Below, piece by piece: positions 14,119 to 46,316 of a stretch of 48,708 nucleotides of DNA (its first letter is position 1; the number at the start of each line of letters is the position of its first letter). Source of the DNA: Bdellovibrio sp. ArHS (GTDB lineage: Bacteria; Bdellovibrionota; Bdellovibrionia; Bdellovibrionales; Bdellovibrionaceae); the NCBI RefSeq assembly GCF_000786105.1, contig NZ_JTEV01000029.1, positions 1 through 48,708 of the forward strand, in the 5' to 3' direction. The position numbers were made by a program, and so were the translations under genes. The notes beneath the pieces were generated by a model. The model was given only the letters and a program-made list of their open reading frames with translations, was not told the origin of the DNA and searched no databases.

Positions 14119-14186
14119 GCAAACCCCTCAGTAGGCTTCTGAAGAGTATTAAATAACGTCCAAAATAAGAGTCAATAATGGAACTA

Positions 14187-18285: not shown

Positions 18286-18434
18286 AGTCTTAGAGAATAG
18301 ACCCAAATCCTTAGGGGCGGCAAGGCAACAGGGCAATTCTAGTCCCGCGTCATTCACTTGGAAAACACCTCTTTCCTCGACGAAAGGTTGGCTTCAAAAA
18401 AGACACTGAACGAGCGAGAAAATTAGCGCACTCT

Positions 18435-19515: not shown

Positions 19516-19673
19516 TATCCCCCCCGAGTACGACAACAATAAGGCTTTTCCTAAAAGAGGTCCCGTGTGTACCAAAAACCACAGGGGCTCGCAAGTCGGT
19601 TTCTAGGCACTTGTTCTTTTTTTCCAAGAAGTGACAGTTTATGTTTTGCGTTATTAGCAATTAAAAAAATTAA

Positions 19674-31984: not shown

Positions 31985-32168
31985 GAGGGCAGTTTATCTT
32001 AGTTTGCGGAGCCAATACAACCAGCACGAAATAGCTTAAGCGTAAAACGTGCCTAATATCAGCTCAGGCGAGCGCAAGAAGAAATAAAGTTGGCGGAACG
32101 AACAGAGCCCCTCTTTGCTCAGCCCCGTTTAAAATGCTTAAATGTCAAAACGAAGGGATGGATGATCT

Positions 32169-32663
32169 TCATTTAATTTCGATGCCGAATTCCCGGCGAA
32201 TATCTTTAAGAGATCGATCCAAGTACTGGTCACTATCTTCCCAAGGCCATTTTCTATGCATACGACGAACCTTTAAGTAAACCCAGATTGGTGCAAACAA
32301 TGCGCGCACGAAGTCTCGGCGAATCTCCTTGCGTAGCCTTGCTTTTGCATCTGCCGTCATTTTAGTCTTAAGATCCTGATGAAGGTCTCGGACGACAGGG
32401 CTAGCCGCTAATCTTAGGTAATTCATAAAGCCAATATCGGCGCCCATCACCGTCCAGAAATCTGCTTTAGCTTCGCCAACAAAGCTAGTATCACAGCCGA
32501 ACACGACGTGAATGCGATCATGGCGGCGAAAGAACTCTCCAGTTTCGTTTTTAAACATATTCACATCTAAAAGTTCCGGGTTAGCTTTGTAATAGTCGTC
32601 TAGCGCCTGCCTTAGCGTAAGAGTCGAATCCTGTTTTTGATAATCTAGACTAATTCTTTCCAT
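32169..32663 (-). CDS. COQ4-like protein
   Basis: 164 residues from the ATG at 32663 (AAAGGA 7 bases upstream). It contains the exact COQ4 zinc motif HDxxHx(11)E: His48, Asp49, His52 and Glu64. The rest is helical with several basic patches and a C-terminal YLKVRRMHRKWPWEDSDQ. COQ4 takes part in ubiquinone ring assembly in mitochondria and some bacteria. This lineage is expected to rely on menaquinone, so the role is open. It overlaps the TetR gene by 14 bases and should be co-expressed under its control. Confidence 0.7.
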   Translation of the reverse strand: MERISLDYQKQDSTLTLRQALDDYYKANPELLDVNMFKNETGEFFRRHDRIHVVFGCDTSFVGEAKADFWTVMGADIGFMNYLRLAASPVVRDLHQDLKTKMTADAKARLRKEIRRDFVRALFAPIWVYLKVRRMHRKWPWEDSDQYLDRSLKDIRREFGIEIK

Positions 32664-33267
32664 CACTTTTCCTTTCAAACATTTGGCCAATCCCTTCTGA
32701 AAACTTTCGCCAAGCAATCTCAAGATCGCTTCTATCCTTAAAAATAATGCAGAACTTTCCCAGACCTTCAAGACACATAGTTATCAGAAGCGGGGCCACG
32801 ATGAGTTCATCCTCATTTAGAGGACGAGCGAGAATTGATTCAAGGCTTTTACGAACATGCACCAATAGCGACTCAACGACTTTAACCTGCAATTTTCGAA
32901 AAACTTCTTCATGGGCCGCGCGTTCATAAAAATAAAGAAGCGCTGCTGATAATTTTCGGTGTGAAAACGGCGCATCGATAGTAGCTAGTCCCATTTGCAT
33001 TACGAAATCAGCCACAGTGGGATATTTATGTACTGTTGCCAAGTCGGAAAACTTCTCGAATAGATGCTCAAAAACTGCGATTGTAACTTCGTCGACATCT
33101 TTGAAGTGGTGAAACAAGACTGCTTTACTGACTTCAGCCTTTTTCGTGATGATCCCTGCGGTTAAACTTTTAGGCCCCTCGTCAATCATAATGGCAAATG
33201 CGGCATCGACAATGCGCCGACGAGTTTGAATGCCTCTTTCTTTTCTCAGATCCTTGCTTGTACTCAT
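32650..33267 (-). CDS. TetR-family transcriptional regulator
   Basis: 205 residues from the ATG at 33267 (a second ATG at 33282 lies inside the operator palindrome; neither has a clear ribosome site). The HTH domain at about 10-60 reads RRRIVDAAFAIMIDEGPKSLTAGIITKKAEVSKAVLFHHFKDVDEV, the standard TetR helix set. The C-terminal ligand domain is typical in size. The 34-bp palindrome upstream points to autoregulation. The overlapping COQ4-like gene is the probable target. Confidence 0.9.
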   Translation of the reverse strand: MSTSKDLRKERGIQTRRRIVDAAFAIMIDEGPKSLTAGIITKKAEVSKAVLFHHFKDVDEVTIAVFEHLFEKFSDLATVHKYPTVADFVMQMGLATIDAPFSHRKLSAALLYFYERAAHEEVFRKLQVKVVESLLVHVRKSLESILARPLNEDELIVAPLLITMCLEGLGKFCIIFKDRSDLEIAWRKFSEGIGQMFERKSDGKN

Positions 33268-33278
33268 AAGGACATAGT

Positions 33279-33312
33279 CCATTAATATTGACCGATCGGT
33301 CAATATTAATGG
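33279..33312. promoter_or_regulatory. TetR operator: 34-bp perfect palindrome
   Basis: Perfect inverted repeat centred between 33295 and 33296, core TTGACCGATCGGTCAA, with matching AT arms and CC/GG ends. The GACCG..CGGTC core is the type bound by many TetR proteins. It sits at the start of the TetR gene; an ATG (33280-33282, minus) lies within it. Confidence 0.85.
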
Positions 33313-33795
33313 CGCGGCGTTATGAAACTCATCTTTTAATCTCAACATCTAATCCTGGCGGCGAATGTGGATATGATATTGCTAGGAGAAATGCAGACTT
33401 GATTAACTTCCCACTTTTAATTCTCTTAATCTCCGCAAAATGACCTCAAAAATTCAGCATTAATCTCAATCCGTCACTGAATACATAAATCCGTCCGATC
33501 ATAATAAAAGTTATGAATACCGGAGTTTCACAGGACCTTTTATAGATTTCAAATTGCTTCCTATTTCGATCAAACTGAAGTTAACGAAATGGCTGAGACA
33601 TTTTTAGCAAAGTATGAAACGTTTCGACTCAATTCCAAAATGAGATTCGTAATTGCTATCAAACGAAGAATGCATATTTTTATATGCAAATGATAACTTA
33701 TTAAACACTTTTTTATTTTTAAGCAGCACTTGTTTGTTCTGCCTAGGCATCACAATTGCTAATAGCCTTTATATCACCTAAACAAAGGAGAAGTT
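33313..33795. other. AT-rich intergenic region at the left margin of the accessory stretch
   Basis: 483 bases with no convincing gene. Contents: AT-rich sequence, the inverted repeat TGCATAT / ATATGCA around four T (33671-33688) and the AAAGGAG ribosome site of the next gene. A 34-codon ATG frame at 33589 lacks support. It marks the drop in GC where the accessory region begins. Confidence 0.4.
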
Positions 33796-34083
33796 TTGAA
33801 ATACCTAGCATTATTTTTATCTGTTGTGCTCTTGGGCTCATCGTTTGCAAATGCGGATACATACGTAAGTGGTTATTATCGAAAAAACGGTACGTATGTT
33901 CAACCCCATTACCGCTCTGATTCAAATGGAAGCACCTCAGACAATTGGTCCTCAAAAGGAAATTCAAATCCATATACTGGGCAAAAGGGATATAGAAACT
34001 CTTACTCGTCGGGCAGCAACTACGACAGTGGGTCATCTTACAACACAGAAAGTAACTCATACTCTAGTGGATGGAACGACTAA
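33796..34083 (+). CDS. Small secreted Ser/Tyr/Gly/Asn-rich protein
   Basis: 95 residues from a TTG start with AAAGGAG 5 bases upstream. Signal peptide ends near FANA. The segment YVSGYYRKNGTYVQPHYRS, followed by NPYTGQKG, matches a short motif common in small exported proteins of many proteobacteria; the function is unknown. The tail (about 60-95) is a low-complexity Ser/Tyr/Gly/Asn run, probably disordered or surface-exposed. Confidence 0.8.
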   Translation: MKYLALFLSVVLLGSSFANADTYVSGYYRKNGTYVQPHYRSDSNGSTSDNWSSKGNSNPYTGQKGYRNSYSSGSNYDSGSSYNTESNSYSSGWND

Positions 34084-34152
34084 AAAATTGCACTTTGGGC
34101 CCTTAACTGAGTGTTCTGAGGTCTTTCGCAAATAAATAGTGTTTCTTAAAAA

Positions 34153-34575
34153 CTATCTTCTTGAGTTGACTACTTTATAGATAATTTTTGATTTTGCATC
34201 TTTTTCGAGACTCACCAGATGTGTCTGAACTAAATTTTCTACGTGCGGACTATAGTGATTTTCGTTCGAAACAACCAAATACTTCCTAAAGGCGGCACCA
34301 TATTTGTCAAACCTATTTAAACACCTCGCCTGCGAAGCGTCCGCGATTTCATAAGCATTAGATTTTGAAGAAACTAAAGAATCTGACTCCACTTCCATGC
34401 ACAAAATGTATTCATTCGCGCATTGATCTAAGTTATCTTTATAAAAACTGACCGTCTCTTCGGGCTGCCGTTCTGTAGGACTAAACCCGCGTTCGAGTCT
34501 TTCTAAAAACGCCGACGATGCGCAACCTCCAAGAATGAAGATTGAAACAAATAACGCAAAAATAGTGATTTTCAT
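34153..34575 (-). CDS. Lipoprotein of unknown function
   Basis: 140 residues with a clear lipobox (LGGC, mature Cys18). The mature part is helical with three further cysteines (DQCANEYILC and ARC). Family not recognised. It follows the outer-membrane gene by 27 bases on the same strand, so the two are likely co-transcribed with the XRE regulator above. Confidence 0.72.
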   Translation of the reverse strand: MKITIFALFVSIFILGGCASSAFLERLERGFSPTERQPEETVSFYKDNLDQCANEYILCMEVESDSLVSSKSNAYEIADASQARCLNRFDKYGAAFRKYLVVSNENHYSPHVENLVQTHLVSLEKDAKSKIIYKVVNSRR

Positions 34576-34602
34576 TTATACCACCCAAGCACAGAAAATA
34601 GA

Positions 34603-35505
34603 TCAGAATATCGCCTTGATAACGATCTGCAAGTAGGTCAGAGATCCCACCTCTGGAACCAATGTATAGGTACCGCTAGAACTTGTATAAGTTCCGCCAG
34701 CACTATAAGTCGTATGAACATTAAGCATAGTCTCAAGATTGAGTATATCATTGATGACATAACCCGCACCCAAAGCCACAAATACTCGCGTGGTAACGGA
34801 TTTCAAAAATTGATCTTTACTATTTAAAATTCCATTGGAAAGGCCCGCATAAACTGGAAGATAGAAAGTGTGCCAGCGATATTTTCCAGCATAGGCGGCA
34901 GTTAAAATACTAAGATCACTATCAGCAATAGTACCAGAGGAAGATTGTCCCGCAAGAGCAACAGTACCCTTATCCAACTTCATATTTACATAAGATAGCA
35001 ATACCCCGTTATTCCACGAGTATTTCTTAAACTGACTCCACTCTCCATTTAAAGAAATCGCGCTACCGAAATCAAACTCGGCATTTCCGCTAAGTTGGGT
35101 GGCACCAGAATAATATTTGAAATCCATTTTTGCTTTTGGACTAAAAACAAGCCCCAGTCCGATACTAAAATAGCTTTCTTTTGTTGAAGCTAACGGCTCA
35201 ATCTTAGATTCGTCTATCTTAACATTTTTTTCTACTTCCTCCACATCAACAGTGTTGGCAACAATTCCAGGGATGATTTTAGATGGATCTGCACAAGTCC
35301 CCAATAGGGCAGAAACTCTCCGCCCTGATACGGTGGTTACTTTGGCAAAGCAGTTTTCAGGCAAAGAAAGTACATCTCCCACCGATATTTTTTCACCGGC
35401 ATCAAGAGCAAAATCAACATTTGTACCGTCAACATCGATGATAGTTGCAGCAACAGAGTTGCCAGCCAAAAGAAAAACAGAAAACAACAACGACAAACGT
35501 CGCAT
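34603..35505 (-). CDS. Outer-membrane beta-barrel protein of unknown function
   Basis: 300 residues. Signal peptide ending near NSVAA, a small N-terminal domain (about 20-100) with two Cys (ENCF and GTC), then about 12 alternating strands with aromatic girdles (SYFSIGLGLVFSP, YSWNNGVLLSYVNM) and a C-terminal IKAIF as expected for Bam recognition. Family not recognised. Situated directly downstream of an XRE gene, as is the lipoprotein at 40215 in the neighbouring unit. Confidence 0.7.
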   Translation of the reverse strand: MRRLSLLFSVFLLAGNSVAATIIDVDGTNVDFALDAGEKISVGDVLSLPENCFAKVTTVSGRRVSALLGTCADPSKIIPGIVANTVDVEEVEKNVKIDESKIEPLASTKESYFSIGLGLVFSPKAKMDFKYYSGATQLSGNAEFDFGSAISLNGEWSQFKKYSWNNGVLLSYVNMKLDKGTVALAGQSSSGTIADSDLSILTAAYAGKYRWHTFYLPVYAGLSNGILNSKDQFLKSVTTRVFVALGAGYVINDILNLETMLNVHTTYSAGGTYTSSSGTYTLVPEVGSLTYLQIVIKAIF

Positions 35506-35603
35506 CCAAACTCCTCCATTACGAACTATTTTATTATCTAGAAAAATCCCAAAACATTTTCGACGATCATTTCAGCTTCACGATGCAGGAAGAGTTTTTG
35601 CCG

Positions 35604-35616
35604 CCCCCCCTTTTTT
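35604..35616. repeat. Homopolymer tract C7T6
   Basis: Seven C followed by six T in the spacer between the XRE gene and the outer-membrane gene. Such runs can slip and alter spacing; no second evidence for phase variation is visible. Confidence 0.5.
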
Positions 35617-35635
35617 CGTTTTCATAAAGTCTTTC

Positions 35636-35941
35636 TTAATCTTCAACTTTTACCCGCTTAATAGTGATCTCAAAAGTCCCCTTAAAAAAGTCTTCCTTAA
35701 GGATCTTTTGTATCGGCTCTTGCGAGTCGTCCTTACCAAATAGTAGAAAATGAAGGCTCACACTTAAATGCGTGGCAACCTTTACCGCCTGGGAAGGGTT
35801 CGGCGCCCTATTGTTAAGCCACTCAGAAAGAGTGGACTTCGGCACACCAGTTGCTTTAGAAATTGAGGCTAAAGTGTGCCTCTCATTTTTCATCAATTTT
35901 TCGAGTGTTTTTCCAATTTTTAATTCCACAGATTCAACCAT
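35636..35941 (-). CDS. XRE-family transcriptional regulator (copy C)
   Basis: 101 residues. Lambda-repressor-type HTH at about 23-77 (LASISKATGVPKSTLSEWLNNRAPNPSQAVKVATHLSVSLHFLLFGKDD), then a short C-terminal strand FEITIKRVKVED. It is paralogous to the XRE at 40880: both share SVSL(H/S)F(L/I)L and a C-terminal ITI(K/Q)R segment. A large palindrome upstream is the probable operator. Likely the regulator of this unit's envelope genes. Confidence 0.88.
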   Translation of the reverse strand: MVESVELKIGKTLEKLMKNERHTLASISKATGVPKSTLSEWLNNRAPNPSQAVKVATHLSVSLHFLLFGKDDSQEPIQKILKEDFFKGTFEITIKRVKVED

Positions 35942-35973
35942 CGTCGAACTCCACTAAACAAAAAAGACCAGAA

Positions 35974-36024
35974 CCGACATCTCGGATAACAATGTTACAT
36001 CTCGAATATTTATTCGAGATGTCG
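35974..36024. promoter_or_regulatory. Likely XRE operator: palindrome plus extra half-site
   Basis: ACATCTCGAATA / TATTCGAGATGT (35997-36022, perfect, 2-base centre), plus a third copy CCGACATCTCG at 35974-35984 that mirrors CGAGATGTCGG at 36014-36024. Located 33-83 bases upstream of the XRE start. Confidence 0.7.
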
Positions 36025-36101
36025 GCAACAGCACAAAAGTTCGCCTGCCCCATCCAGCCGAGGCGTTTGGCGATAGATGTTTTGAATAGAGTTAGTTAGA
36101 C

Positions 36102-36281
36102 AGTCTGTAGTGCGCCAACAAATTCTCTATGACGAGAATTACCAGAGCGGTTATTTCGGATAATTTCCCGTTATCGAGACTAGATGAACTAAATCCCTGA
36201 TTTGCGTTTTAAATTATTGTTTTTATTATCTGTTTCTTATTTTTATCTGACTTTGAAGAATCACTGCGGGAAATGGTAGGG
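36102..36281. repeat. Diverged repeat copy C (XRE upstream region to att-like end)
   Basis: Resembles the repeat next to the tRNA (44912-45178). Shared blocks are TCTGTAG, GGTTATTTCGGAT followed by AT.TC, GAACTAAATCCCTGAT versus GAAACAATCTCTGAT, and TCAyTG before ATGGTAGGG. Similarity is partial, so this is the most diverged of the three copies. Confidence 0.5.
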
Positions 36282-36288
36282 AGTGCGG
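36273..36288. other. Possible attachment-site remnant (tRNA 3' end-like)
   Basis: ATGGTAGGGAGTGCGG compares with ATGGTAGGGGGCGAGG at the tRNA 3' end (45179-45194): 9 identical bases first, then interrupted matches. It lies 55 bases beyond the integrase stop, where a left att site would be expected. Confidence 0.4.
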
Positions 36289-36324
36289 AGGCTGAAATTG
36301 CTTAATAATTTCAAGCCTCTTTTT
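36288..36324 (+). terminator. Hairpin with T-run beside the integrase gene
   Basis: GAGGCTGAAATT / AATTTC-A-AGCCTC stem then TTTTT on the plus strand. It would stop rightward transcription from entering the integrase gene antisense. Confidence 0.65.
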
Positions 36325-36343
36325 CCTCGCTAAATACAAATTG

Positions 36344-37444
36344 CTACAACTTCGAAAAGTTAATAATTTGCGCTGAATTTACACCATGAGTCTGCATATC
36401 ATCAAGGCAGGCGGTCGCATCTTTAATGTTAATACCCGCCTTGCGCATATAAATCATCATCGTGTCCATATCGCGCCAACCGCCCATAGACATAACTTTG
36501 CTCGGGGCCACGCCTTTGCCAAGCAATAAAGTCGCCCAGCTCGCTCTAAGGTCATGGAATCTAATCTCCGGCAGGCCTAGAGATTTTAAGATGAATCGAA
36601 GCTCTCGGGCCTGATCTCCCTTATCCCATTTGCTTAGACGAGGCAGCACAAAGTTATTTCCCGCTGACTGAAGCTTCAACTCATTCAGCACTGGCAGCAG
36701 TGGCTTGGGAATCTCCACCAATCGATCGTCACCAGACTTCGTTGATTTGTAGCCATCCTTGCTGCTCCAAGAGCAATTCACCAAAATCTGCCTTTGTTCC
36801 AAGTTAACCTTGTCCCAAGTCAGCGCATAAAGCTCCCCATTTCTCATGCCCGTGTAAAGCGCCACCGCATAATGGGGATACCAATGCCAATCCAGCTCCT
36901 GCGATCTTCTAAGAAGAGTAATGATCTGCTCCTCATTCAAAACTGCTTTGATTTTATCGTTAACCTTGAACTTAATCAGCGGCGTCGGATTTCTTAGCAA
37001 AATGCCTTCTTCAACTGCGTACTGAAATACACCTTTAAGACATTTGATAAAAAATTTCTTATGCGCTTCTGCATTTTGTCCTAATCGCTCATTCAGCAAC
37101 TTATGAATATCGGGAGTCGTAATTTGATCAACCCTCTTTGCATCCCAAGCAGGCAGCGTATGAAAACGCAAAACCTTTTCTCTGTTGTAGACCGTGCTTT
37201 TCATAAGCTCGTTCTTTTCATCGATACTGATAAAATAATCAGTTAATAACTTACTCCACAAAGGAACAATTTTTTGATGAAAGTGATCGCTCATCCGAAT
37301 AACCATTTCACGTTCAGCTTTTACTGCCTCCGCTTTAGATTTCAGACCTGTCTTCTTATAGGTCTTCGGCATCTTAGTAACCGGATGGCGCTTACTGAAA
37401 TATGCAGACCATGTTTTTGTTGCATCATCGAATTTAATTCCCAT
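36344..37444 (-). CDS. Tyrosine recombinase (integrase)
   Basis: 366 residues. N-terminal arm-type/SAM-like domain (about 1-155), then the catalytic domain with Arg201 (GMRNGE), Lys236, His297-x-x-Arg300 (HDLR), Trp323 in GGWRD and nucleophile Tyr332. All catalytic positions are present, so it looks functional. It overlaps the excisionase-like gene by 11 bases. Its 3' end faces the tRNA-like att remnant, the usual island layout. Confidence 0.95.
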   Translation of the reverse strand: MGIKFDDATKTWSAYFSKRHPVTKMPKTYKKTGLKSKAEAVKAEREMVIRMSDHFHQKIVPLWSKLLTDYFISIDEKNELMKSTVYNREKVLRFHTLPAWDAKRVDQITTPDIHKLLNERLGQNAEAHKKFFIKCLKGVFQYAVEEGILLRNPTPLIKFKVNDKIKAVLNEEQIITLLRRSQELDWHWYPHYAVALYTGMRNGELYALTWDKVNLEQRQILVNCSWSSKDGYKSTKSGDDRLVEIPKPLLPVLNELKLQSAGNNFVLPRLSKWDKGDQARELRFILKSLGLPEIRFHDLRASWATLLLGKGVAPSKVMSMGGWRDMDTMMIYMRKAGINIKDATACLDDMQTHGVNSAQIINFSKL

Positions 37445-37697
37445 TGAAACCTCCTTGTCTGCTCGACGTGAGAAGCTTCAACAGGTCAGATTTTAAATAT
37501 CTATTTCGTCTTTGAAATTTGTAGTAAGGCACCTTGCCGTTACTAGATAAATTCAAAAGAGATTTCTTCGGTATCTTGAGATAAGCCGCAGCCTCTTCTG
37601 TTGTCATCCATTCTTCAATTTTCAAAGAACAATCTTCAGTCTCATGCGGCCTTATATCGGACAATTGACCAATCGACATTGAGGAAATCAAAGGCAT
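37434..37697 (-). CDS. Excisionase-like HTH protein
   Basis: 87 residues. The C-terminal half (MTTEEAAAYLKIPKKSLLNL through YLKSDLLKLL) is a MerR-like HTH_17 domain as in phage excisionases, preceded by a ~28-residue tail. It overlaps the integrase gene (11 bases) and the nuclease gene (10 bases), so the three are one translationally linked operon. It probably directs the integrase or represses its own promoter. Confidence 0.8.
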   Translation of the reverse strand: MPLISSMSIGQLSDIRPHETEDCSLKIEEWMTTEEAAAYLKIPKKSLLNLSSNGKVPYYKFQRRNRYLKSDLLKLLTSSRQGGFNGN

Positions 37698-38413
37698 GGC
37701 TTTTTCTCCGTAGAAACATGACGAAATTCTTTCGCTAAGCTAGACAGATTGCATTGAAAGAGCGACTCAATGTCCTGATCGGAAGCATTCAAGAAAATTG
37801 TTACCAAGTAGATTTTCAACCATATTCGTCTCTTGGCCCTGGTATCGGTAGGGCGAAAATAATACCGTGTATTTAGGAACTTCAATCGATCTGCAGCAAT
37901 ATCTGCATTCTTAACCCTTAGCGTGAGAATATTCATCCAATGCAAAAGCTCTTCTTTATGATTGTCCTTCAAAGCTTTAGGCCATAGATCATGGATAGGG
38001 CCATCCACTTCGATAGCTACTCCACAAAAGCTTTCCAATTGGCGATTAAAGCCAGAGAGTGTAGGAGCAAAGAGATCAACATTTTTTCGTCCGATCCAAA
38101 TCGAAGGCAGAAATTCGCATTTACTTACCGCATGTAACTTATTACGCAGAATGCGCTCTGATGAGGTTGGCGTGCTTTGCTCAGTGAAAGACTCATTTAA
38201 TTGCGCATTGAGTGCCTCGTATTTGATGCAGATTTCATCATGCTTGGGATGAACATAGGATTTTAGGTTTATCCGCAAAACCCCAATAGTAGTGCTATCA
38301 TTAAATAATCGTGGATATAATGACCGTAAGACAGAAAGCCGGAAGGCATCTTTTTTCTTTGCTGAGCGATTACGACAAAGCTCTTTCGCTATCTCTCTTT
38401 CCATTTTGGACAT
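37688..38413 (-). CDS. DUF559/Vsr-like PD-(D/E)xK nuclease
   Basis: 241 residues from the ATG at 38413, which has GGGGGAG 6 bases upstream. The central region follows the DUF559 pattern: SERILRNKL, RKNVDLFAP (Asp113), then AIEVDGPIHD (Glu135, Asp137, His141), KDNHKEELLHWMNILTLRV (Asp150 onward). These give an intact endonuclease-like active site. First gene of the xis-int operon and divergent from the AT-hook-like gene. DUF559 proteins are usually orphan; pairing with an integrase is unusual. Function (nicking, defence, transfer) unknown. Confidence 0.72.
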   Translation of the reverse strand: MSKMEREIAKELCRNRSAKKKDAFRLSVLRSLYPRLFNDSTTIGVLRINLKSYVHPKHDEICIKYEALNAQLNESFTEQSTPTSSERILRNKLHAVSKCEFLPSIWIGRKNVDLFAPTLSGFNRQLESFCGVAIEVDGPIHDLWPKALKDNHKEELLHWMNILTLRVKNADIAADRLKFLNTRYYFRPTDTRAKRRIWLKIYLVTIFLNASDQDIESLFQCNLSSLAKEFRHVSTEKKPCL

Positions 38414-38528
38414 AGTGCTCCCCCAAACCCAAGAAATCACAAGGGCTTTAAATATTTGTTTTCATTCAATTTGTGACTTTGTATAAGTTCGATCCGAGGC
38501 ACGTGCTCCTCAGAACCGAGCTGGAGTT

Positions 38529-39284
38529 ATGGCAAATAAAAGTGTTAAGAAAAATTACCTTAAACGTCGTGGTCGCCCTGCAAAAAAGGTGAATTTAAGC
38601 GATGAACGAAAAACTTTATTCTTAGAACATTTTAAATATTCTCTTTGGGACTCCTGCAAAAGGCACATCAAGGGCTATCTGTATCGACAAAAATTAGAGC
38701 AAGAGTGCATAAAAAAGTGTATCGCGATGACGGATGAATTTGACCGGCTGCTTGAGCCTCTTTCGCCACCTCAAAGAAAACGAATCAGATCGCAATTTAG
38801 AATTTCAAAGGTAAAAGGTGCTCAATCTGCAGCGAGTGATTTACAGCCTATGAAGCAAAGGAAAACCGGCAGGCCACCAAGACTCGGTGAAATTTCCTAT
38901 CTCATCTATTCGGCTTTAGAGGGTGCGAAAGGCGACAAGAATTTGATCAATGAAGTTGGTAGAGTCATAAAGGCTGGCGGTGAGCTACACACTCTCTTAA
39001 GAGATGCGTTTCCCGGAATAGATGCTTATGAGCTTTTTAATTTTCCAAGCGTACATATTTCTCAAGTAAAACCTTGGCACGAATCATATAAGTTTAAGTT
39101 AAAAGCACGGGCAAAAGAGTATTTTAAAAATCTTTGGCGTGAGCCCTACATGAAGGAACACTTCGGCCCTTACAGTGATGAACTCTTTGAGCAGATGGCT
39201 AATGATGGTGGTTTTTCTCAAAGGCATTCAAACTTTTTCAGAGTTCAAAGTGGTGGCAAGGCCATTGAATTTATTGAAGAGTAG
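38529..39284 (+). CDS. AT-hook-like DNA-binding protein, unknown family
   Basis: 251 residues, basic. Two AT-hook-type cores flanked by basic residues: RRGRPAKK at 13-20 and KTGRPPR at 112-118. The remainder is helical and the C-terminal half (PWHESYKFKLKARAKEYFKNLW) is aromatic. No enzyme motif seen. It is divergent from the nuclease-xis-int operon and likely a structural or regulatory DNA-binding protein of the element. GGAG lies 2 bases from the ATG, which is close. Confidence 0.65.
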   Translation: MANKSVKKNYLKRRGRPAKKVNLSDERKTLFLEHFKYSLWDSCKRHIKGYLYRQKLEQECIKKCIAMTDEFDRLLEPLSPPQRKRIRSQFRISKVKGAQSAASDLQPMKQRKTGRPPRLGEISYLIYSALEGAKGDKNLINEVGRVIKAGGELHTLLRDAFPGIDAYELFNFPSVHISQVKPWHESYKFKLKARAKEYFKNLWREPYMKEHFGPYSDELFEQMANDGGFSQRHSNFFRVQSGGKAIEFIEE

Positions 39285-39497
39285 ATGTCTTCTGCGATCT
39301 TTCTGTAAAACAAAATCATATTTGGCGAAACTGCAGTTTTGATATTCATAATTGCAGTGCCATTATTTCAGACTATATGCTTGTAAAATATTGAAAATAT
39401 TAAGTTATCTGGCGCAGGTTGATCCGAAAGTACGGCATTATTGCATACCTAAAAAGGGGCATTTGATTTTTTAGTATTTCGATACCGCTTTTAGGCT

Positions 39498-39517
39498 AGT
39501 GGAGGCTCACCTCCACT
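39498..39517. terminator. Perfect hairpin in the spacer between convergent genes
   Basis: AGTGGAGG / CCTCCACT with a CTCA loop, in the 261-base gap 39285-39545. No long T-run; the rest of that gap shows nothing else I can name. Confidence 0.5.
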
Positions 39518-39545
39518 TGAGTTTTATAAATACATTTTCACAGGC

Positions 39546-40016
39546 TTATAAAGTGGCGGTGTACTTCTTTGCTCTTTCAACATCGGTGAGAAGTTTGTCA
39601 CCAGCCTCTTTAAGTGCGGCAACCAACTTCTCCAGATTATTAATCGCAAGAAATCGATTTTGACGAGATAAATTGCTGATAGCTTGCGCCTCTCTAAAAA
39701 TAACCTCGTCGGATGCATTTGCAGTTTCTGATTTTTGATAAATCTCACTCAAAAGTTTTAATCCCCACTTGCCACCAACCTTTACCCAACCTAATGACAT
39801 CAATTCATAGCAAGGGGCCGACGTTAAAACGCGGTCTGGCCATAAACTTTTGGCATTTGAAAAAGGGATTTCGGTTCGCTGAATAACTGCTTCGGCTGTG
39901 ATGCCTAGGTTGAGCGTCATTAGTTGAGATTCAAAATTTTTTAGAGTCTGATTAGCTTCGTCGGTTGCTTCGTTGAGCTGCTTAGATAAAGCAGAAAGAT
40001 CTGACAATGGGGCCAT
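39546..40016 (-). CDS. Helical protein of unknown function
   Basis: 156 residues with a predicted N-terminal coiled coil (about 8-40: LSALSKQLNEATDEANQTLKNFES) and a second helical stretch (about 98-156). The central part (SAPCYELMSLGWVKVGGKWGLKLL) could be a small winged domain. No known family. GGAGG precedes the ATG. It is the last gene of the XRE-lipoprotein unit, 11 bases after a small open frame. Confidence 0.65.
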   Translation of the reverse strand: MAPLSDLSALSKQLNEATDEANQTLKNFESQLMTLNLGITAEAVIQRTEIPFSNAKSLWPDRVLTSAPCYELMSLGWVKVGGKWGLKLLSEIYQKSETANASDEVIFREAQAISNLSRQNRFLAINNLEKLVAALKEAGDKLLTDVERAKKYTATL

Positions 40017-40027
40017 GGGAATTCCTC

Positions 40028-40171
40028 CTATATTTGGGCTACCGCCCGGTTTAATTTTTGCGCCTCTTCCGAGACGCGTTTGTAATCAGCTTCCGCCGAT
40101 TGCTGCCAAACTAAGGCATTGAGGGACCCAAAGTCAACCGTGCATGGCACCTTGCCATCAAACAAAATCAT
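40028..40171 (-). CDS. Small helical peptide (47 residues)
   Basis: Open frame from the ATG at 40171 to TAG at 40028-40030. It starts MILFDGKVPC and runs into an amphipathic helix (LNALVWQQSAEADYKRVSEEAQ). It lies between the lipoprotein (43 bases above) and the 156-residue gene (11 bases below) on the same strand, in what reads as one operon. No ribosome site is clear, so translation may depend on coupling. Sequence composition looks protein-like. Confidence 0.45.
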   Translation of the reverse strand: MILFDGKVPCTVDFGSLNALVWQQSAEADYKRVSEEAQKLNRAVAQI

Positions 40172-40214
40172 CTATAGTCGTAATTGCAGTCCATGGGGGA
40201 ACTTTTAAAAGATG

Positions 40215-40883
40215 CTATTTGGGTGCTGCTGCTTCTAAGAAGTCCCAAAGAGAGTTGTCGATGAAAAACTCTTTGAATATTCCGTAGGTCTTTAAATCTT
40301 TCTTCTGTTCGGCTACTTCACTTGTAACCTTCTTAAATGAATAAACGGTCTTTGTGCTGCCCAAGGCATTCATGTATCGATACAAGCCTGTAAATGCGTA
40401 TAAATCCCAATTAAAGGCATTATCGACGAAACCATTGTCTACTAGCGCCCCCTCATTTGTTTTTTGAATAAAGGCCACTTTGGACGTTCTACCACCGTGT
40501 TCCCAATCAGGAGCATCCACGATGAATCCGTCAGGCAATACTTGGATGACTCGCAAGGTACTGCTTTGTGCCTTGAGCTTGCGTGACTCAAATAAATCAG
40601 GCTCAGTCACAATAAGGGCTGCGGCAGTGTAAAGACAATTTTCTGACGGAGTTTCCTTCGAGCTAGCAATGAGTTCTGAAACGCCTAGCTTAGGGCAAAA
40701 GATTTTTCCACCTAAGCGAGATGTTAAGGTTTTCTTTTCACCTTGAAACTCGTTGCTATTTTTTAGATCGCGCCACTTTTTGGCAACGCCGACATTCGAT
40801 GTTGCTGATATAATCGCACAACCAGATAAGAAACCAAGAACTGACGAAGTAAAAAGGATTACCGCGATGGTGTTTCTAATCAT
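40215..40883 (-). CDS. Lipoprotein of unknown function
   Basis: 222 residues. Lipobox LSGC (mature Cys22) and a mature part with mixed alpha/beta segments and two Cys (IFCPKLG and ENCLY). Family not recognised. Start ATG overlaps the XRE stop by 4 bases (ATGA), so regulator and lipoprotein are translationally coupled. Confidence 0.75.
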   Translation of the reverse strand: MIRNTIAVILFTSSVLGFLSGCAIISATSNVGVAKKWRDLKNSNEFQGEKKTLTSRLGGKIFCPKLGVSELIASSKETPSENCLYTAAALIVTEPDLFESRKLKAQSSTLRVIQVLPDGFIVDAPDWEHGGRTSKVAFIQKTNEGALVDNGFVDNAFNWDLYAFTGLYRYMNALGSTKTVYSFKKVTSEVAEQKKDLKTYGIFKEFFIDNSLWDFLEAAAPK

Positions 40884-41236
40884 TTTACTGTCTCCTTTTT
40901 TCTTGGGAGCAGTCGCTGGATGGTGATTTTAGCGTAGCCATCAAAAATAGCTCCCCCATCGTCAAATACTTCAGCCACAGAGGGCAGTTGGTTTGGTTCT
41001 TTTAAATCTTCTTCTCCGGTAAGAATAAATGACAGGCTTACGCTAAACTCCGTAGCGAGTCTTTTAACGGCAGAATAGTCCTCAGGTAATGCGCCGCCTC
41101 TCCAGTCATCAATCGTTGATGGCGCAACACCTGCGATCGCGGCCGCTTGCCTTATAGTCATTTTTCTTTCAGTCATTAGAGATCGAAGGATCTTTGCGAA
41201 AGGCGTTGTGCCCGATCGCTTTCGAGTTTTTTTCAT
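40880..41236 (-). CDS. XRE-family transcriptional regulator (copy A)
   Basis: 118 residues. HTH at about 18-74 (ILRSLMTERKMTIRQAAAIAGVAPSTIDDWRGGALP), then YSAVKRLATEFSVSLSFILTGEED and a C-terminal tail with ITIQRLL. Paralogue of the XRE at 35636 and of the broken copy at 44778-44911. First gene of an operon with the lipoprotein, small peptide and helical protein. Presumably binds the CCGG-rich inverted-repeat region just upstream (about 41280-41330). Confidence 0.88.
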   Translation of the reverse strand: MKKTRKRSGTTPFAKILRSLMTERKMTIRQAAAIAGVAPSTIDDWRGGALPEDYSAVKRLATEFSVSLSFILTGEEDLKEPNQLPSVAEVFDDGGAIFDGYAKITIQRLLPRKKETVK

Positions 41237-41331
41237 ACAGCGTGTCCCCTGGTTCTTGTTCGGCGATTCCTCACTCTGGTTGTAGGGAAATCCGATGAAA
41301 CGTACACGACCGGATTACCGGACAGATTCTA

Positions 41332-41566
41332 GCTTGTCTGCTAGTAAAGAGACTCGATGCTTTGAGAAAATTATTTATATTGTCGATTTTGCAGCTCTTC
41401 AAAAGCCTAATGCGTCCACGCTCTATAGCGTGGCTATTTTTAAATAAAATGAAAAAATCTCGACCGATTGAACTAATATCCGGCTATAAACTGTAAAATT
41501 TTAGATGTGATTTTTAAAAGCAAAAAGCCACGCATTTAATCCGTGGCTTTTCCATATTCATTTCTA
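41332..41566. repeat. Repeat copy A (XRE upstream region)
   Basis: Clear match to 44912-45178. Shared blocks in order: GCTTGTCTGCTA, GTCGATTTTG.AGC, GCGTCCACGC, GAACTAATATCC-like, TTTTAGAT.TGATTTTTAAAA, and the GCCACG/CGTGGC hairpin followed by TTCATT. Similarity to the tRNA-side copy stops at the base where that copy enters the tRNA 3' end. Confidence 0.75.
41523..41551 (-). terminator. Hairpin terminator downstream of the GHKL ATPase gene
   Basis: AAAAGCCACG / CGTGGCTTTT stem; same hairpin type as at 45129-45160 below the tRNA. Serves the ATPase gene ending at 41579. Confidence 0.75.
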
Positions 41567-41578
41567 CCTATTGGCAGA

Positions 41579-43531
41579 TTAAATCTTTTCCAATAGTCGT
41601 TTCATACGAACATCGTCAGGAACACGTTCAGATAGAACACCCAAAAAGTCATGCCAATTTGCAAAAGCTTCATTCAATAAAGTATTCCAGTCCATGGCAT
41701 ACATTTCATTTTTAGCCATTGCCTTAATTTTAATATTATTAGCAGGTTTTTTATCAATTTTATCAGCGATAATGTAACCAGACACTCGATTAAATCTGCC
41801 ACCTGTATTTGCGTTAAGAGATGCTTCAATGGTGTGAATATAAGTCTCAAAGCGTTGAATATGATCTCTATCGAGGGGTAAGCCCGGCTGCATAAATTCA
41901 ACAACCAAAAGATGATCTCCGCTGCTAAGTGCAAGATCAATTCGTTTATTCTTATCTTTGCCCAGATCTTTCTCCACCTCGGCGGCCCATTTCTCCAAAG
42001 TCTTTTTCAAAGACGTTTCAACGGCAAATGTTTCCCATCGCGGACCAATCAGCCAAGCATTCTTCGCAATATAATCTCTGACTGAATTTTCAAGATCTTT
42101 TCTTTCGATGCGCTCCTGAAGACCTGCAATTACCGATAGTTTCGTTTTTACAGCTTCTGCCGTATGCAAGGCATTTAAAACTTTGGCCTCAACAAGGATT
42201 GCAAGCAAATCTGATTCCTGCATCTCATCAATTTCTGATACTTTGCTAATTAAAGCTTTAAGCCTACCATCCTCCCAAGCTGTCAAAAGTGACTCTCCAA
42301 GTAGGGCAAACTGATCGTCATCAATTGACTCAATTGATGCCAACTTGCTAAGCGCTTGCTTTACCGTACTTCTCTCAGTCGGCTCAAGATTTTCTAATCG
42401 CTCACTAAAATTACCGCCAACCTTGTCATCTAAAATTTTTTCTTTTTTCTCAGCTCGAGCCTTCTTCCATAAAGAAAGCAAATCTTTAACCAATTTCTGC
42501 CCCCAGAGCAACAGCGGCTCTGCCTCTGAGTTTTCCCAATTAATTCTTTGTCGCTCAGGAGCAATAATATCTTCAGCAAATTTATCAATGAAATCCGCTT
42601 GGACTTGGCCGCTCATATACTCAAGTCCATGTTGACTTACAAGTCCGCCAGTTAAATTGAAATTGAAAGGTGTTTGTGCAATTTTTCCATTTGCAAAAAT
42701 AGAAATACCGCGAAGCTCGTCTTCACTAATTGGCTTTGCGAAAAAATTTACCCGCCACTTTACCACATCTCCCGAAGGTAAAATTTCGGTAGCCCAACCA
42801 TCTTTCTCGACCTCACACTCTCTATCGGTATCCTCAGGAAGGTCTCTTGGAAAGATAAATTCCACTTCTTTATCAGTGGCCTCTTGCGGAAGCGGTTCGC
42901 CGTTAACAAAAACTTTGAAGTCAGCCGATGTTTGCGGCAATAAAAATCTTCTTGCCATCTTAGACGAAAACTTATCTGGCTGCTTTTTAATTACCAAATT
43001 TTTCAAAGTTATCGTTGTACCGTGATCTTTAATTTTAGACTTATCTGGAGGAGAGTATTCTAAAACTGTAATCAATTTGGGATTTTGACCGATGTAGTCG
43101 GTTCCTCGAAGCTCATCTAAATCTAAACAGAATTTCGTCCTTTCACCGTCAGATTTACTAACAGTCAGAATTTCTATTTTTCTCGCGATTCCAAAACCTG
43201 CCAACTTTCCTATTCCCTTACGTCCTAGCACAGGACGAGATTTTTCAAGAGACTTACCTTCGCTCTTATCGCCTCGCCGGTTAAGACCTACTTTGAGGAA
43301 CTTCGTTTGGCAGTCGTCAAAGGTCATCCCATGACCGTCATCTACAATTGCGATTTCGCTATTCTCATCAATTTTTTCAGGAAAAATAATTTTGACTTGC
43401 TCAGCATCGGCATCCCAAGCGTTAGATACCATTTCAGCAATGGCAGCCACAGCACTTTGATACATTTGAATGCCGAGGTGATCTATAATCCGTCCATGGA
43501 ATGATAGCTCGAGAGTGGGCTTCTTGCTCAT
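41579..43531 (-). CDS. GHKL ATPase with nuclease-like C-terminus (restriction/defence candidate)
   Basis: 650 residues. N-terminal GHKL/HATPase domain: EMVSNAWDADA (33-43), VDDGHGM (63-69) and GRKGIGKLAGFGIA (103-116). Long helical middle (about 330-480). The C-terminal segment (530-548) reads RIDLALSSGD then VVEFMQPG: Asp532, Glu545 and Met547 where PD-(D/E)xK enzymes have Lys. It starts one base after the methyltransferase stop, with the GGAGAG ribosome site inside that gene. From memory, HgiDII/BbrUII-type restriction proteins pair a GHKL ATPase with a C5 methyltransferase; this fits, but recognition sequence is unknown. Confidence 0.8.
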   Translation of the reverse strand: MSKKPTLELSFHGRIIDHLGIQMYQSAVAAIAEMVSNAWDADAEQVKIIFPEKIDENSEIAIVDDGHGMTFDDCQTKFLKVGLNRRGDKSEGKSLEKSRPVLGRKGIGKLAGFGIARKIEILTVSKSDGERTKFCLDLDELRGTDYIGQNPKLITVLEYSPPDKSKIKDHGTTITLKNLVIKKQPDKFSSKMARRFLLPQTSADFKVFVNGEPLPQEATDKEVEFIFPRDLPEDTDRECEVEKDGWATEILPSGDVVKWRVNFFAKPISEDELRGISIFANGKIAQTPFNFNLTGGLVSQHGLEYMSGQVQADFIDKFAEDIIAPERQRINWENSEAEPLLLWGQKLVKDLLSLWKKARAEKKEKILDDKVGGNFSERLENLEPTERSTVKQALSKLASIESIDDDQFALLGESLLTAWEDGRLKALISKVSEIDEMQESDLLAILVEAKVLNALHTAEAVKTKLSVIAGLQERIERKDLENSVRDYIAKNAWLIGPRWETFAVETSLKKTLEKWAAEVEKDLGKDKNKRIDLALSSGDHLLVVEFMQPGLPLDRDHIQRFETYIHTIEASLNANTGGRFNRVSGYIIADKIDKKPANNIKIKAMAKNEMYAMDWNTLLNEAFANWHDFLGVLSERVPDDVRMKRLLEKI

Positions 43532-43532
43532 C

Positions 43533-44564
43533 TCATTTCTCTCCTAATATTGAATCCTTTATTACTTTAGCATGTCGTCGTATAAATTCTGGTGGCAACG
43601 CATTCCCGACCATCAGGGCGGCCCCGTGCTTTCCTTTTCTCATAGAGAAGTAATATGACTTCGGAAAGCTTTGGATGAGTGCTGCCTCACGCACGGTAAT
43701 TGTGCGGTTCTCAAATGGATGAAGAAAACGACCTTTAGTGGGATTAATGCACCCGCCAGTTATTGTAGGCCCTACATCATTCCACTTTATACGACCGAAG
43801 ACATCTAGAAAGCCCTTAGTCTTTTGATGACATTTCATCTGCAGGCGCTTCGGAAGAGATGTTCTACTACCTCCGTCGAGAGGAATGTAAGAGATCATCT
43901 CACGAATTTTTTCATTTCTTTTCTCACCGTGATTATGAGCCGGATCGAAACTTTTCAATGGACTTTCAAGTCCCTTCAAAGCATCTCCAACTGTAATCAT
44001 TTTTTTAGCAGGTTTCGCAAACTCGATTGGTCGTTTATGACCCGCAACTAAAATGAATCTTTTTCTTCTCTGTGCTACTCCATAATGAGCCACGTTTAGC
44101 ACATCGAATTTCACTTCATATCCCATGGATTTTAATTCTGAGACAAATTTCGCTATCCTGCGTCCCTTGGCCAATCCTGGAACATTCTCCATCATAATTG
44201 CCTTAGGAAGAAATGCCCTTACAAAATCCAGAAAGTTGAACATCAAATTATTTCTGTAATCCTGAACTGCAACTGTTTTCCTATTCGTTCTTAAAGTGGA
44301 GAATCCCTGACAAGGAGGACAGCCTGCGATAAGGTCTAGGTCACCTTTTTTTAAACCTAGTTCTTTCATTAACTTCGTCGGATTTATTTTTCTAATATCT
44401 TGCTCAATTAATTTTGTATTTTTATGGTTTTGCGCATAAGTCTCAGCCGCCAAACTATCGATTTCTACGGCAGCAATTACATCGAAGCCTGATTTTTTGA
44501 GCCCCAAACTGAGGCCACCACAACCAGAAAACAGATCGATTGCCTTTAATTTTTTGTTTTTCAC
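43533..44564 (-). CDS. DNA (cytosine-5)-methyltransferase
   Basis: 343 residues from the GTG at 44564, preferred over a TTG at 44579 because GGAGAG lies 7 bases above the GTG. Motif I is DLFSGCGGLSLG; motif IV is GCPPCQGFS with catalytic Cys85. Motif VI is ENVPG (126-130) and VIII is QRRKR (165-169). Motifs IX/X include REAALIQSFPKSYYF and VGNALPPEF. All are intact, so it should methylate DNA. The target-recognition region is between VIII and IX and gives no readable specificity. Operon with the GHKL ATPase. Confidence 0.95.
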   Translation of the reverse strand: MKNKKLKAIDLFSGCGGLSLGLKKSGFDVIAAVEIDSLAAETYAQNHKNTKLIEQDIRKINPTKLMKELGLKKGDLDLIAGCPPCQGFSTLRTNRKTVAVQDYRNNLMFNFLDFVRAFLPKAIMMENVPGLAKGRRIAKFVSELKSMGYEVKFDVLNVAHYGVAQRRKRFILVAGHKRPIEFAKPAKKMITVGDALKGLESPLKSFDPAHNHGEKRNEKIREMISYIPLDGGSRTSLPKRLQMKCHQKTKGFLDVFGRIKWNDVGPTITGGCINPTKGRFLHPFENRTITVREAALIQSFPKSYYFSMRKGKHGAALMVGNALPPEFIRRHAKVIKDSILGEK

Positions 44565-44636
44565 TAAATGTCTCTCCAAGATGTGAACTTATTTTCAAAC
44601 CTATCAAAATTGCTGTAAACATCTTTTTATTAATTA

Positions 44637-44655
44637 GACCATCATCCTGATGGTC
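44637..44655. promoter_or_regulatory. Inverted repeat upstream of the methyltransferase operon
   Basis: GACCATCA / TGATGGTC, 8-bp perfect arms, 3-base centre. It lies about 75-90 bases above the methyltransferase start, in position for an operator or for a terminator of an opposing transcript. Confidence 0.45.
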
Positions 44656-44749
44656 GCACACGCGCGGGAAATATTACCCTCTAGACTTTGGTTTAGGCAA
44701 ACTGAAACCAGACAGCCGAAAATCAGATTTTAAAATTGGAGATTAATAA

Positions 44750-44833
44750 ATGAAAAACCCAAATAGCAAGAAACTGATCAAAACAGATGCAACACAACTT
44801 CTGTTTCCTTCAATATCTCCTTTTTCAAGGTGA
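44750..44833 (+). CDS. Very short open frame, probably truncated
   Basis: 27 codons from an ATG with GGAG 9 bases upstream (MKNPNSKKLIKTDATQLL, stop at 44831-44833). It runs into the decayed XRE region on the opposite strand. It may be the start of a gene cut off when the repeat units recombined. Weak evidence. Confidence 0.25.
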   Translation: MKNPNSKKLIKTDATQLLFPSISPFSR

Positions 44834-44911
44834 GATTGGTATTTTTAGTAAGCCTCTTTACGGCAGAGAAACTCTCGTCTGATAACATTCTACTACCAGT
44901 GTTTCCACCTT
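44778..44911 (-). pseudogene. Decayed XRE regulator gene (copy B)
   Basis: The minus frame reads LSDESFSAVKRLTKNTNLTL then EILKE, aligning with LPEDYSAVKRLATEFSVSLSF of the intact XRE at 40880. Base changes within SAVKRL are mostly synonymous (TCTGCCGT.AA.AG.CT). The start codon and N-terminal helices are missing: the homologous upstream repeat begins immediately beside it, so about 270 bp have been deleted. Stop at 44778-44780. Confidence 0.65.
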
Positions 44912-45178
44912 GCTTGTCTGCTATGAAAGAAGCCCAATGTTCTGGGAAAATTCTCTGTAGCGTCGATTTTGTAGCGTTTCAAAAATCTGTAGCGTCCACG
45001 CGCTACAAAAACACTGCAAATGGGGTTATTTCGGATGATCTCGGGTGATATGAAGAAAATCTGACCTATTGAAACAATCTCTGATGGCAGACTGTAAATA
45101 TCTAATTTTAGATATGATTTTTAAAAACAAAAAAGCCACGCTTTTGATTCGTGGCTTTTTCAAAATTCATTGTTTGGG
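44912..45178. repeat. Repeat copy B (abuts the tRNA 3' end)
   Basis: Direct-repeat partner of 41332-41566 and, more distantly, 36102-36281. It contains GCGTCCACGC, GGTTATTTCGGAT, the GCCACG hairpin and TTCATT. It is directly followed by the CCA end of the tRNA gene (45180-45182), so it represents the tRNA-proximal end of an integrated element. Confidence 0.75.
45129..45160 (-). terminator. Hairpin terminator downstream of the tRNA
   Basis: AAAAGCCACG / CGTGGCTTTT stem with flanking A and T runs, 20 bases past the tRNA 3' end; its minus-strand T-run would end tRNA transcription. Confidence 0.8.
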
Positions 45179-45179
45179 A

Positions 45180-45256
45180 TGGTAGGGGGCGAGGGACTTG
45201 AACCCCCGATCCCAGTGTTATGAGCACCGTGCTTTAACCAACTAAGCTAGCCCCCC
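45180..45256 (-). tRNA. tRNA with CAT anticodon (elongator Met or lysidine Ile2)
   Basis: 77 nt including an encoded CCA. Acceptor GGGGGGC pairs with GCCCCCT (one G-U) and the discriminator is A. The D arm is GCTTAGTTGGTTAAAGC. Anticodon arm is CGGTG-CTCATAA-CACTG, giving anticodon CAT. T arm GGGGG-TTCAAGT-CCCTC. The anticodon stem lacks the three G-C pairs of initiator tRNA and the 1-72 pair is formed, so it is not fMet. Met versus Ile2 cannot be settled by eye. Its 3' end is the island insertion point. Confidence 0.92.
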
Positions 45257-45454
45257 ACTTTAGAGCTTCTAAAGTAGCAAAAGAGCTTACATCGCGCAAA
45301 GGCGGGATACGACGCTCCACTCCGCAATAGCTTTGTTCTCATGTTTTCGCCGATTACGAATGGACCATCTTCAAGACTGGACAACCCTAGAGCCAAGACC
45401 GAGGGAGTAAAATGGAGGCTCAAGCAATTTAATGCAACAAGGGAGGAGACTGCC

Positions 45455-46261
45455 ATGGATAAACACTATGAAGGACTGTGGGCCGTCATCACGGGGGCAT
45501 CCAGCGGAATCGGCTACGAACTCGCCAAACAGTTCGCTTTACATGGTTTCGATATTCTTGTCGCCGCAGAGGACGCAGGGATCGTCGAAGCCGCACACTC
45601 GTTCTCTCAATACGGCACAAAAGTGGACTACATTCAGGTCGACCTAAGAAAAGCGGAGGAAGTGGAACGACTTCATTCACGCATTCTTCAAGAAGGCCGG
45701 GCCTTGGACGCTATTGCCATTAATGCCGGAGTCGGCGTGGGAGGAGCTTCGTTTGACAAAACAGATCTGAAAACCGAAATCGACCTGATTCATTTAAACG
45801 TCGTTTCGGTGGTTCATCTAACAAAACTAGTATTAAAGGATATGATTGAGGCTGGCCATGGCCGCATTCTTTTCACATCTTCCGTCGCGGCATTCATGCC
45901 GGGACCGTATGAAGCCGTTTATTCAGCATCAAAAGCCTTCGTACAATCCTTTGCTGAAGGTATTCGCGCAGAGGCTAAAGACAAAGGAATTTCTATCACC
46001 GCACTTCAACCAGGCCCCACCGAAACAAACTTCTTCCATCGCTCAGGCATGGATGACACGAAGGTGGGCGACCAAGAAAAAGACCGTGCCGCTGATGTGG
46101 CAGAGGATGGTTTCGAAGCTTTAATGGCCGGCAGAGATAGCATTATTGCTGGCTCTTTGAAAAATAGAATTCAAGCGAACATCGCCAAGATCCTTCCTCA
46201 AAAAGTCGCAGCCAAAACTCACGAGAGTATGACAAAACCAAACAACCCCAAAGACCGATGA
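45455..46261 (+). CDS. Short-chain dehydrogenase/reductase
   Basis: 268 residues from the ATG at 45455 (GGGAGGAG 7 bases upstream; an open 38-codon upstream extension is ignored). Cofactor motif TGASSGIG (14-21), NAGVGVGG, catalytic TSS and YSASK. The tail extends beyond the classical SDR core with a Lys/Pro-rich end. Substrate unknown. Single gene closed by a long hairpin terminator. Confidence 0.9.
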   Translation: MDKHYEGLWAVITGASSGIGYELAKQFALHGFDILVAAEDAGIVEAAHSFSQYGTKVDYIQVDLRKAEEVERLHSRILQEGRALDAIAINAGVGVGGASFDKTDLKTEIDLIHLNVVSVVHLTKLVLKDMIEAGHGRILFTSSVAAFMPGPYEAVYSASKAFVQSFAEGIRAEAKDKGISITALQPGPTETNFFHRSGMDDTKVGDQEKDRAADVAEDGFEALMAGRDSIIAGSLKNRIQANIAKILPQKVAAKTHESMTKPNNPKDR

Positions 46262-46272
46262 GCTTGGCCAAA

Positions 46273-46307
46273 AAAGTAAAGGGAAGCTTATCGCTTCCCT
46301 TTACTTT
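46273..46307. terminator. Bidirectional terminator
   Basis: 15-bp perfect stem AAAGTAAAGGGAAGC / GCTTCCCTTTACTTT with a 5-base loop, between the convergent SDR and TraT-like genes. Confidence 0.88.
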
Positions 46308-46316
46308 AGTATCTTG

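Follow-up and report, generated by a model that had tools for sequence, protein, structure and literature searches.

The window analysed here is the whole stretch of 48,708 nucleotides from Bdellovibrio sp. ArHS (contig NZ_JTEV01000029.1), and our subject is the DNA lying in it on the 3' side of a tRNA-Met gene at 45180-45256. This DNA carries a tyrosine integrase, an excisionase-like gene, a predicted restriction-modification (R-M) pair, XRE regulator genes and three related stretches, R(A), R(B) and R(C), referred to collectively as R. As far as can be judged from sequence, the region is very probably a stack of related tRNA-targeted integrative elements, accreted at one tRNA 3' end. The features on which this reading depends are listed below; other genomes and their loci are given as G and L numbers.

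31985..36273, no strand: what is left of an older unit, in which no left end is recognised: core, left arm and integrase are all missing
35636..35941, minus strand: XRE regulator A, beside R(A); Pfam/PHROGs HTH matches
36096..36273, plus strand: R(A), tRNA-side end of the older element, now against the core; outside profile E=1.2e-7
36274..36281, plus strand: attL core TGGTAGGG, which repeats the 3' end of the tRNA and forms the head-to-tail junction
36282..36349, plus strand: left arm of the integrase element, AGTGCGGAGGCTGAAATT..., 73-82% identical in G022, G011 and G020; CTACAA at 36344-36349
36344..37444, minus strand: tyrosine integrase; PF00589 1.5e-19, phrog_1 6e-50, 86% identical to that of G022
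37434..37697, minus strand: excisionase-like HTH_17 protein; PF12728 1.5e-11, TIGR01764 excise above cut-off
40880..41236, minus strand: XRE regulator B, beside R(B); Pfam/PHROGs HTH matches, 51% identical homologue near the G065 integrase
41329..41566, plus strand: R(B), decayed internal copy of the end sequence; 24-bp box lost, possible core relic TGGCAG at 41572 (non-significant)
44820..44908, minus strand: probable XRE gene remnant beside R(C), DESFSAVKRLTKNTNL; weak, local score 40 against a best of 37 in 300 shuffles
44968..45179, plus strand: R(C), the end of the composite element next to the tRNA; outside profile E=1e-19; CTACAA at 44969-44974 (reverse complement) and 45003-45008, hairpin 44988-45007, 24-bp box 45026-45049, terminator
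45131..45160, minus strand: rho-independent terminator-like hairpin of R(C), immediately 3' of the tRNA gene; folding energy -15.6 kcal/mol (z -3.0)
45180..45256, minus strand: tRNA-Met(cat), the integration target; ARAGORN, with an identical tRNA and tRNA-rpoD synteny in relatives

Attachment core and junction at the tRNA-Met gene

The tRNA-Met gene has TGGTAGGGGGCGAGG; its 3' end reads TGGTAGGG on the plus strand (45180-45187), and this is the part that it has in common with the left end. The tRNA 3' end thus forms a direct repeat at both boundaries, with TGGTAGGG at 36274 and at 45180, and it does likewise in relatives. The catalytic motifs of the integrase (R, K, HxxR and Y) are intact, in TGMR, GYKS, HDLR and MMIYM, and excisionase-like homologues are found in nearly all sibling integrase loci, forming with the integrase a common backbone. 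The family's other end consists of TGGTAGGG joined to AGTGCGGAGG beside the integrase 3' end, and in the window it stands at 36274, directly against R(A). The exact 18-mer TGGTAGGGAGTGCGGAGG, which includes the core, follows the integrase 3' end in the window, G022, G020, G002 and G024, and in G011 with one mismatch, all of them at tRNA-Met.

The left boundary is set to the base by a comparison of G002 and G024, which belong to different genera: identity is 86-88% from the first base of the core across about 11 kb of compared element parts, and 76% in the DNA flanking the tRNA towards rpoD. Judged by these identities, horizontal transfer is shown for the family, though not for the copy in the window. 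Between 36096 and 36349 the window reads R(A), then at once TGGTAGGG, then the left arm of the integrase element. On our reading, this order shows a head-to-tail junction at 36274, where the integrase element was added on the tRNA side of an older relative.

Two other candidates were rejected. The sequence at 36274 had been considered as a degenerate tRNA relic, and the intact 8-bp core followed by the element's left arm is preferred. The 15-bp GGTAGGGGGCGAGG, present in copies in G022 and G011, was dismissed as an attachment site because it is part of the native flank and is present at empty sites too; the true core lies 0.3 kb further right. A native flank of 200-290 bp beside the tRNA (GGGGGCGAGGTTRTGCCCGCGG..., at L053 1929-2219, L054 6087-6379 and, in oriented L059 and L063, about 15730-15940) itself starts with a duplicate of the 3' end of the tRNA and might be another small inserted element.

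The site is also known in simpler states. With the element removed and the two sides put together, the flanks of G022 and G011 align to G021, where the site is empty, and in the two single-unit genomes the DNA left of the core is chromosomal flank matching that empty site. Elements of 8.1-19.9 kb occupy the tRNA-Met site as single units in five other genomes. In the window, the site is partly eroded on its left side, and the gene at 31445-31984 lies 13.2 kb from the tRNA, its orthologue in G001 being about 0.7 kb away.

We regard G058, of another genus, as an independent stack, formed at tRNA-Ser. In its oriented locus L148 the tRNA-Ser end TGGCGGAGAG occurs three times, at 404, 9753 and 15643, with R preceding the first two, and the unit between the first two cores contains a family integrase, an excisionase-like gene, an XRE gene and a lipoprotein gene. 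The tRNA-proximal unit of G058 (L148 reverse complement, 13807-15054) has, by eye, a different predicted recombinase; the tRNA-Ser site may thus be used by unrelated elements. In its oldest unit (L161 reverse complement, 16223-19645), a DUF3800-like gene and an ATPase/HNH pair (Septu-like), likewise recognised by eye, lie directly left of R. The proposal of a first, sequence-only reading of this DNA, that insertion had taken place repeatedly at one tRNA 3' end, is upheld by the junction at 36274, the single-unit genomes, the empty site and the independent stack, the kind of support that the reading itself had called for.

These observations can be brought together in a model. An intact element comprises the attachment core, which has the same sequence as the end of the tRNA, the left arm, the integrase and excisionase-like genes, variable cargo, the conserved right arm R and the core within the tRNA. 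The integrase would act on the circular element, recombining its core with the 3' end of the tRNA gene; insertion would restore a whole tRNA, place R, with its own terminator, just downstream and push the earlier resident sequence, the R of any previous element among it, beyond the new core. The succession of R(A), core and left arm at 36274 is the arrangement that insertion on the tRNA side of an older resident has to leave behind; the integrase and the left end of this resident would have been lost afterwards. As to R(B), it would be a duplicate inside the element or else the right end, now worn, of a second unit, and the R-M pair would have been captured beside R.

Copies of R and the number of units

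The three stretches were compared pairwise by local alignment against 500 dinucleotide shuffles. B (41329-41566) and C (44909-45178) score 208 (shuffles, 38±7), and A and C score 58 (31±5); none of the 500 shuffles reached the score in either comparison. The B/C alignment covers about 265 bp and runs far past the terminator hairpin; similarity confined to this hairpin would have spoken against the sequence-only reading. That reading also had the similarity stop exactly at the tRNA end; in fact it stops about 7 bp short between B and C, and copy A continues into the 8-bp tRNA-end copy at 36274-36281, which had gone unreported. A profile of R, made from 10 element ends from other genomes and zero window sequences, matches C at 44968-45085 (E=1e-19) and A at 36098-36281 (E=1.2e-7; E=0.0012 with a smaller profile), and the match to A finishes on 36281, the final base of TGGTAGGG. 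Over the window it gives no other real match beyond A and C: B is missed, and is tied to R via C. The alignments and the profile together identify A, B and C as diverged copies of one sequence, R, and the relatedness of the three stretches, as first proposed, is confirmed. In the genome itself (3.54 Mb, 47 contigs), no further copy of R is found at a meaningful score, and on this ground R was rejected as a dispersed repeat. R contains CTACAA sites and the 24-bp box TTATTTCGRRTGATTTCGRRTGAT; R(C) and several other copies also include the tRNA terminator, the hairpin of which has equivalents in R(B) (z -4.9) and G022 (z -3.4).

Some observations weigh against a stack as we describe it. Compared directly, A and B score 28, which is non-significant (32±6 in shuffles). 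The older unit has no left end, and TGGTAGGG is absent from 31900-36273 at ≤1 mismatch; the native flank of the G001 type has also gone from here, so a deletion at the left of the older unit is likely. In the filled flank of G022 and G011, about 90 bp next to the junction are not found in G021. After R(B), there is no core at ≤1 mismatch and no left arm, and a third unit is therefore unproven. Moreover, the genome is a draft assembly of 47 contigs.

The number of units hinges on R(B). One attL (36274) and one attR (45180) enclose the integrase, three open reading frames (ORFs), a lipoprotein gene, XRE B, R(B) and the R-M pair. The division first drawn between a unit with the integrase and envelope genes and a unit with the methyltransferase and ATPase is unsupported as written, since both gene sets lie inside this single pair and B is without a recognisable core or left arm. 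We consider it about equally probable that R(B) ends a second unit whose neighbour has lost its left end and that it is an internal duplicate. The latter leads to a variant of the stack in which only the third unit is disputed and to which we give an even chance: an older relic ending in R(A), followed by one composite element (36274-45180) with an internally duplicated R(B) and with the R-M pair acquired inside as cargo. The 8.9 kb between attL and attR falls within the size range of single units at tRNA-Met and, like the lack of a core and left arm after R(B), the loss of the 24-bp box from R(B) agrees with two units. Against this, XRE sequence lies beside both R(B) and R(C), although the remnant at C is weak; TGGCAG stands at the expected core position after R(B), albeit without significance; and the identity of R(B) to R(C), at about 75%, is low enough to exclude a recent duplication. 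The R identity matrix is usable solely for values above about 73%, its baseline being high because gaps are omitted.

R across genomes

In other genomes, R adjoins the same tRNA-Met gene (G022, G002, G024, G009 and G020) and also other tRNA genes: tRNA-Val in G051, tRNA-Ser in G058 and G067 and, in a shorter form, tRNA-Asn in G080. As the profile built from outside ends finds both C and A, and its match to A ends on the core, we identify R as the conserved tRNA-side end, or attachment arm, of a family of integrase-defined elements of 7-20 kb in Bdellovibrionaceae. By the positions of R, the targets of this family are tRNA-Met, tRNA-Val and tRNA-Ser, and probably tRNA-Asn. CTACAA, which is present in the left arm as well as in R, is the top enriched hexamer of element ends over interiors (p=7e-11, uncorrected for the roughly 2,000 hexamers), and we infer that its repeats at both ends are putative integrase arm sites. 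A small fragment is found in G014 (L061 reverse complement, 15889-15934), where only the final 45 bp of a G022-type R, terminator and core, stand beside the tRNA, possibly as the scar of a lost element.

The three stretches had been described at first as repeats upstream of XRE genes, each with an XRE gene or its remnant alongside. The genes at 35636-35941 and 40880-41236 are real, as their HTH matches indicate, while the remnant at 44820-44908 is weak. XRE and R stand side by side again in G051 and G058, as at A and B in the window, and XRE A and XRE B each have R 90-160 bp upstream, a layout that recurs in those two genomes; R might thus be an operator or promoter region duplicated along with XRE genes, its proximity to tRNA genes being incidental. 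However, R abuts the tRNA with no XRE gene beside it in G022, G002, G024 and G020, which makes it the attachment arm of the element rather than a leader of XRE genes. Most XRE homologues elsewhere are without R, and every well-matched R ends at the core, so that we hold the operator explanation to be very unlikely. Least credible of all is an origin of the repeats from the native 3' flank of the tRNA (terminators and spacer) by ordinary duplication, without site-specific integration: a tRNA-trailing terminator does belong to R and in G014 occurs without the remainder of it, but the flank is different in relatives with an empty site, R is found at other tRNA genes, and the cross-genus block of similarity begins at the core.

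Cargo and relation to known systems

The remaining genes of the stack are the following.

34153..35505, minus strand: envelope-type cargo of the older unit, with an outer membrane protein (OMP)-like gene at 34603-35505 and a lipoprotein-like gene at 34153-34575; ORFs and signal sequences by eye
37688-38440 (minus), 38529-39284 (plus) and 39546-40016 (minus): three cargo ORFs; no convincing family match
40215..40883, minus strand: predicted lipoprotein downstream of XRE B; signal/lipobox by eye, no convincing family match
41579..43531, minus strand: paraMORC3 / BbrUII-HgiDII-like GHKL ATPase, predicted restriction enzyme; PADLOC REase_II 2e-43
43533..44579, minus strand: C5-cytosine DNA methyltransferase (Dcm); PF00145 1e-62, NCBIfam dcm above cut-off, PADLOC MTase_II

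XRE A is 71% and 70% identical to the XRE proteins beside R in G051 and G058, a likeness that places the older unit in the same family. Its OMP-like protein (34603-35505) has no family match, and for the envelope and unassigned cargo of the window no homologues are found in sibling elements. Further left, a TetR gene and the gene next to it (32169-33348) recur as paralogues on contig C19 of the same genome, again as a pair (68-71% amino acid identity); this TetR has no relative in 24 other sampled genomes, and the two genes may be a transferred unit. On the other side, between the tRNA and rpoD, lie an SDR gene and a lipoprotein-like gene (45341-47054). In relatives such as G001 about 0.8 kb separates the tRNA from rpoD, so that DNA has been gained on the 5' side of the tRNA gene in the window as well.

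The methyltransferase/ATPase pair (41579-44579) is a predicted Dcm and paraMORC3 (HgiDII-like) R-M system. Against NCBIfam NF050001, the ATPase reaches 314 bits over a nearly full-length match, under the cut-off of 550. Its closest homologue found, 51% identical, lies in a Pantoea prophage, also beside a Dcm gene, and the P2-like E. coli phage PhiR44_1 carries an annotated ParaMORC3 and Dcm pair. None of 39 sampled relatives has a paraMORC3 protein, and a sequence-based search for a solved structure of the ATPase found none.

Among the sibling elements at the same tRNA, TerS is present in G002 and G020, TerL in G002 and a primase in G020 (L058 14077-15967, L056 6061-10437), and no capsid genes are seen; viral contigs gave no integrase relative and no left-end sequence. 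It is conceivable, though we put it forward only tentatively, that the family is an undescribed phage-satellite-like lineage in predatory bacteria, moving between genera, perhaps by means of Bdellovibrio phages, with one arm (R and its CTACAA sites) combined with changeable tRNA cores, and stacking defence and envelope cargo. One literature search turned up no description of a phage satellite from Bdellovibrio, a weak indication that the family is new; the element family seems to be undescribed before, the process itself being already known. As both ends of the family are now defined, such islands can be found and delimited exactly in draft genomes. There are two independent stacks, at tRNA-Met in the window and at tRNA-Ser in another genus, and a predator genome grows in this way an array of defence and envelope genes at tRNA ends. 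The satellite-like genes of the siblings make the case that predatory bacteria harbour phage satellites one that can be tested.

Three known systems resemble what is described here. In the BbrUII/HgiDII systems of paraMORC3 and Dcm (PMC2292703), where the association of paraMORC families with methylase genes is described, a C5 methyltransferase adjoins a full-length paraMORC3-like GHKL ATPase, as it does here; the window ATPase differs in falling under the NCBIfam equivalog cut-off, and the pair is carried on a Bdellovibrio element. With the phage-inducible chromosomal islands (PICIs) and other phage satellites (PMC6092414), the family shares a terminal integrase with an excisionase/AlpA-like HTH gene, a size of 7-20 kb, defence cargo and a lack of visible capsid genes. 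In contrast to these satellites, it has no known helper phage, and it possesses an R end and tRNA targets of its own; as Pfam/PHROGs searches gave no primase or TerS match in the window element, we do not file it as a PICI under the definition of PMC6092414. The closest parallel to the process is the tandem accretion of ICESt1-type elements and cis-mobilizable elements (CIMEs; Pavlovic et al. 2004, cited in PMC5704250). There, as in the window, a second element enters the attachment site of a resident, the older unit is shrunk by deletion, and the units stand head to tail at one target. The present case differs from that account in that the elements show no conjugation genes, insert at a tRNA gene and form a family of Bdellovibrionaceae.

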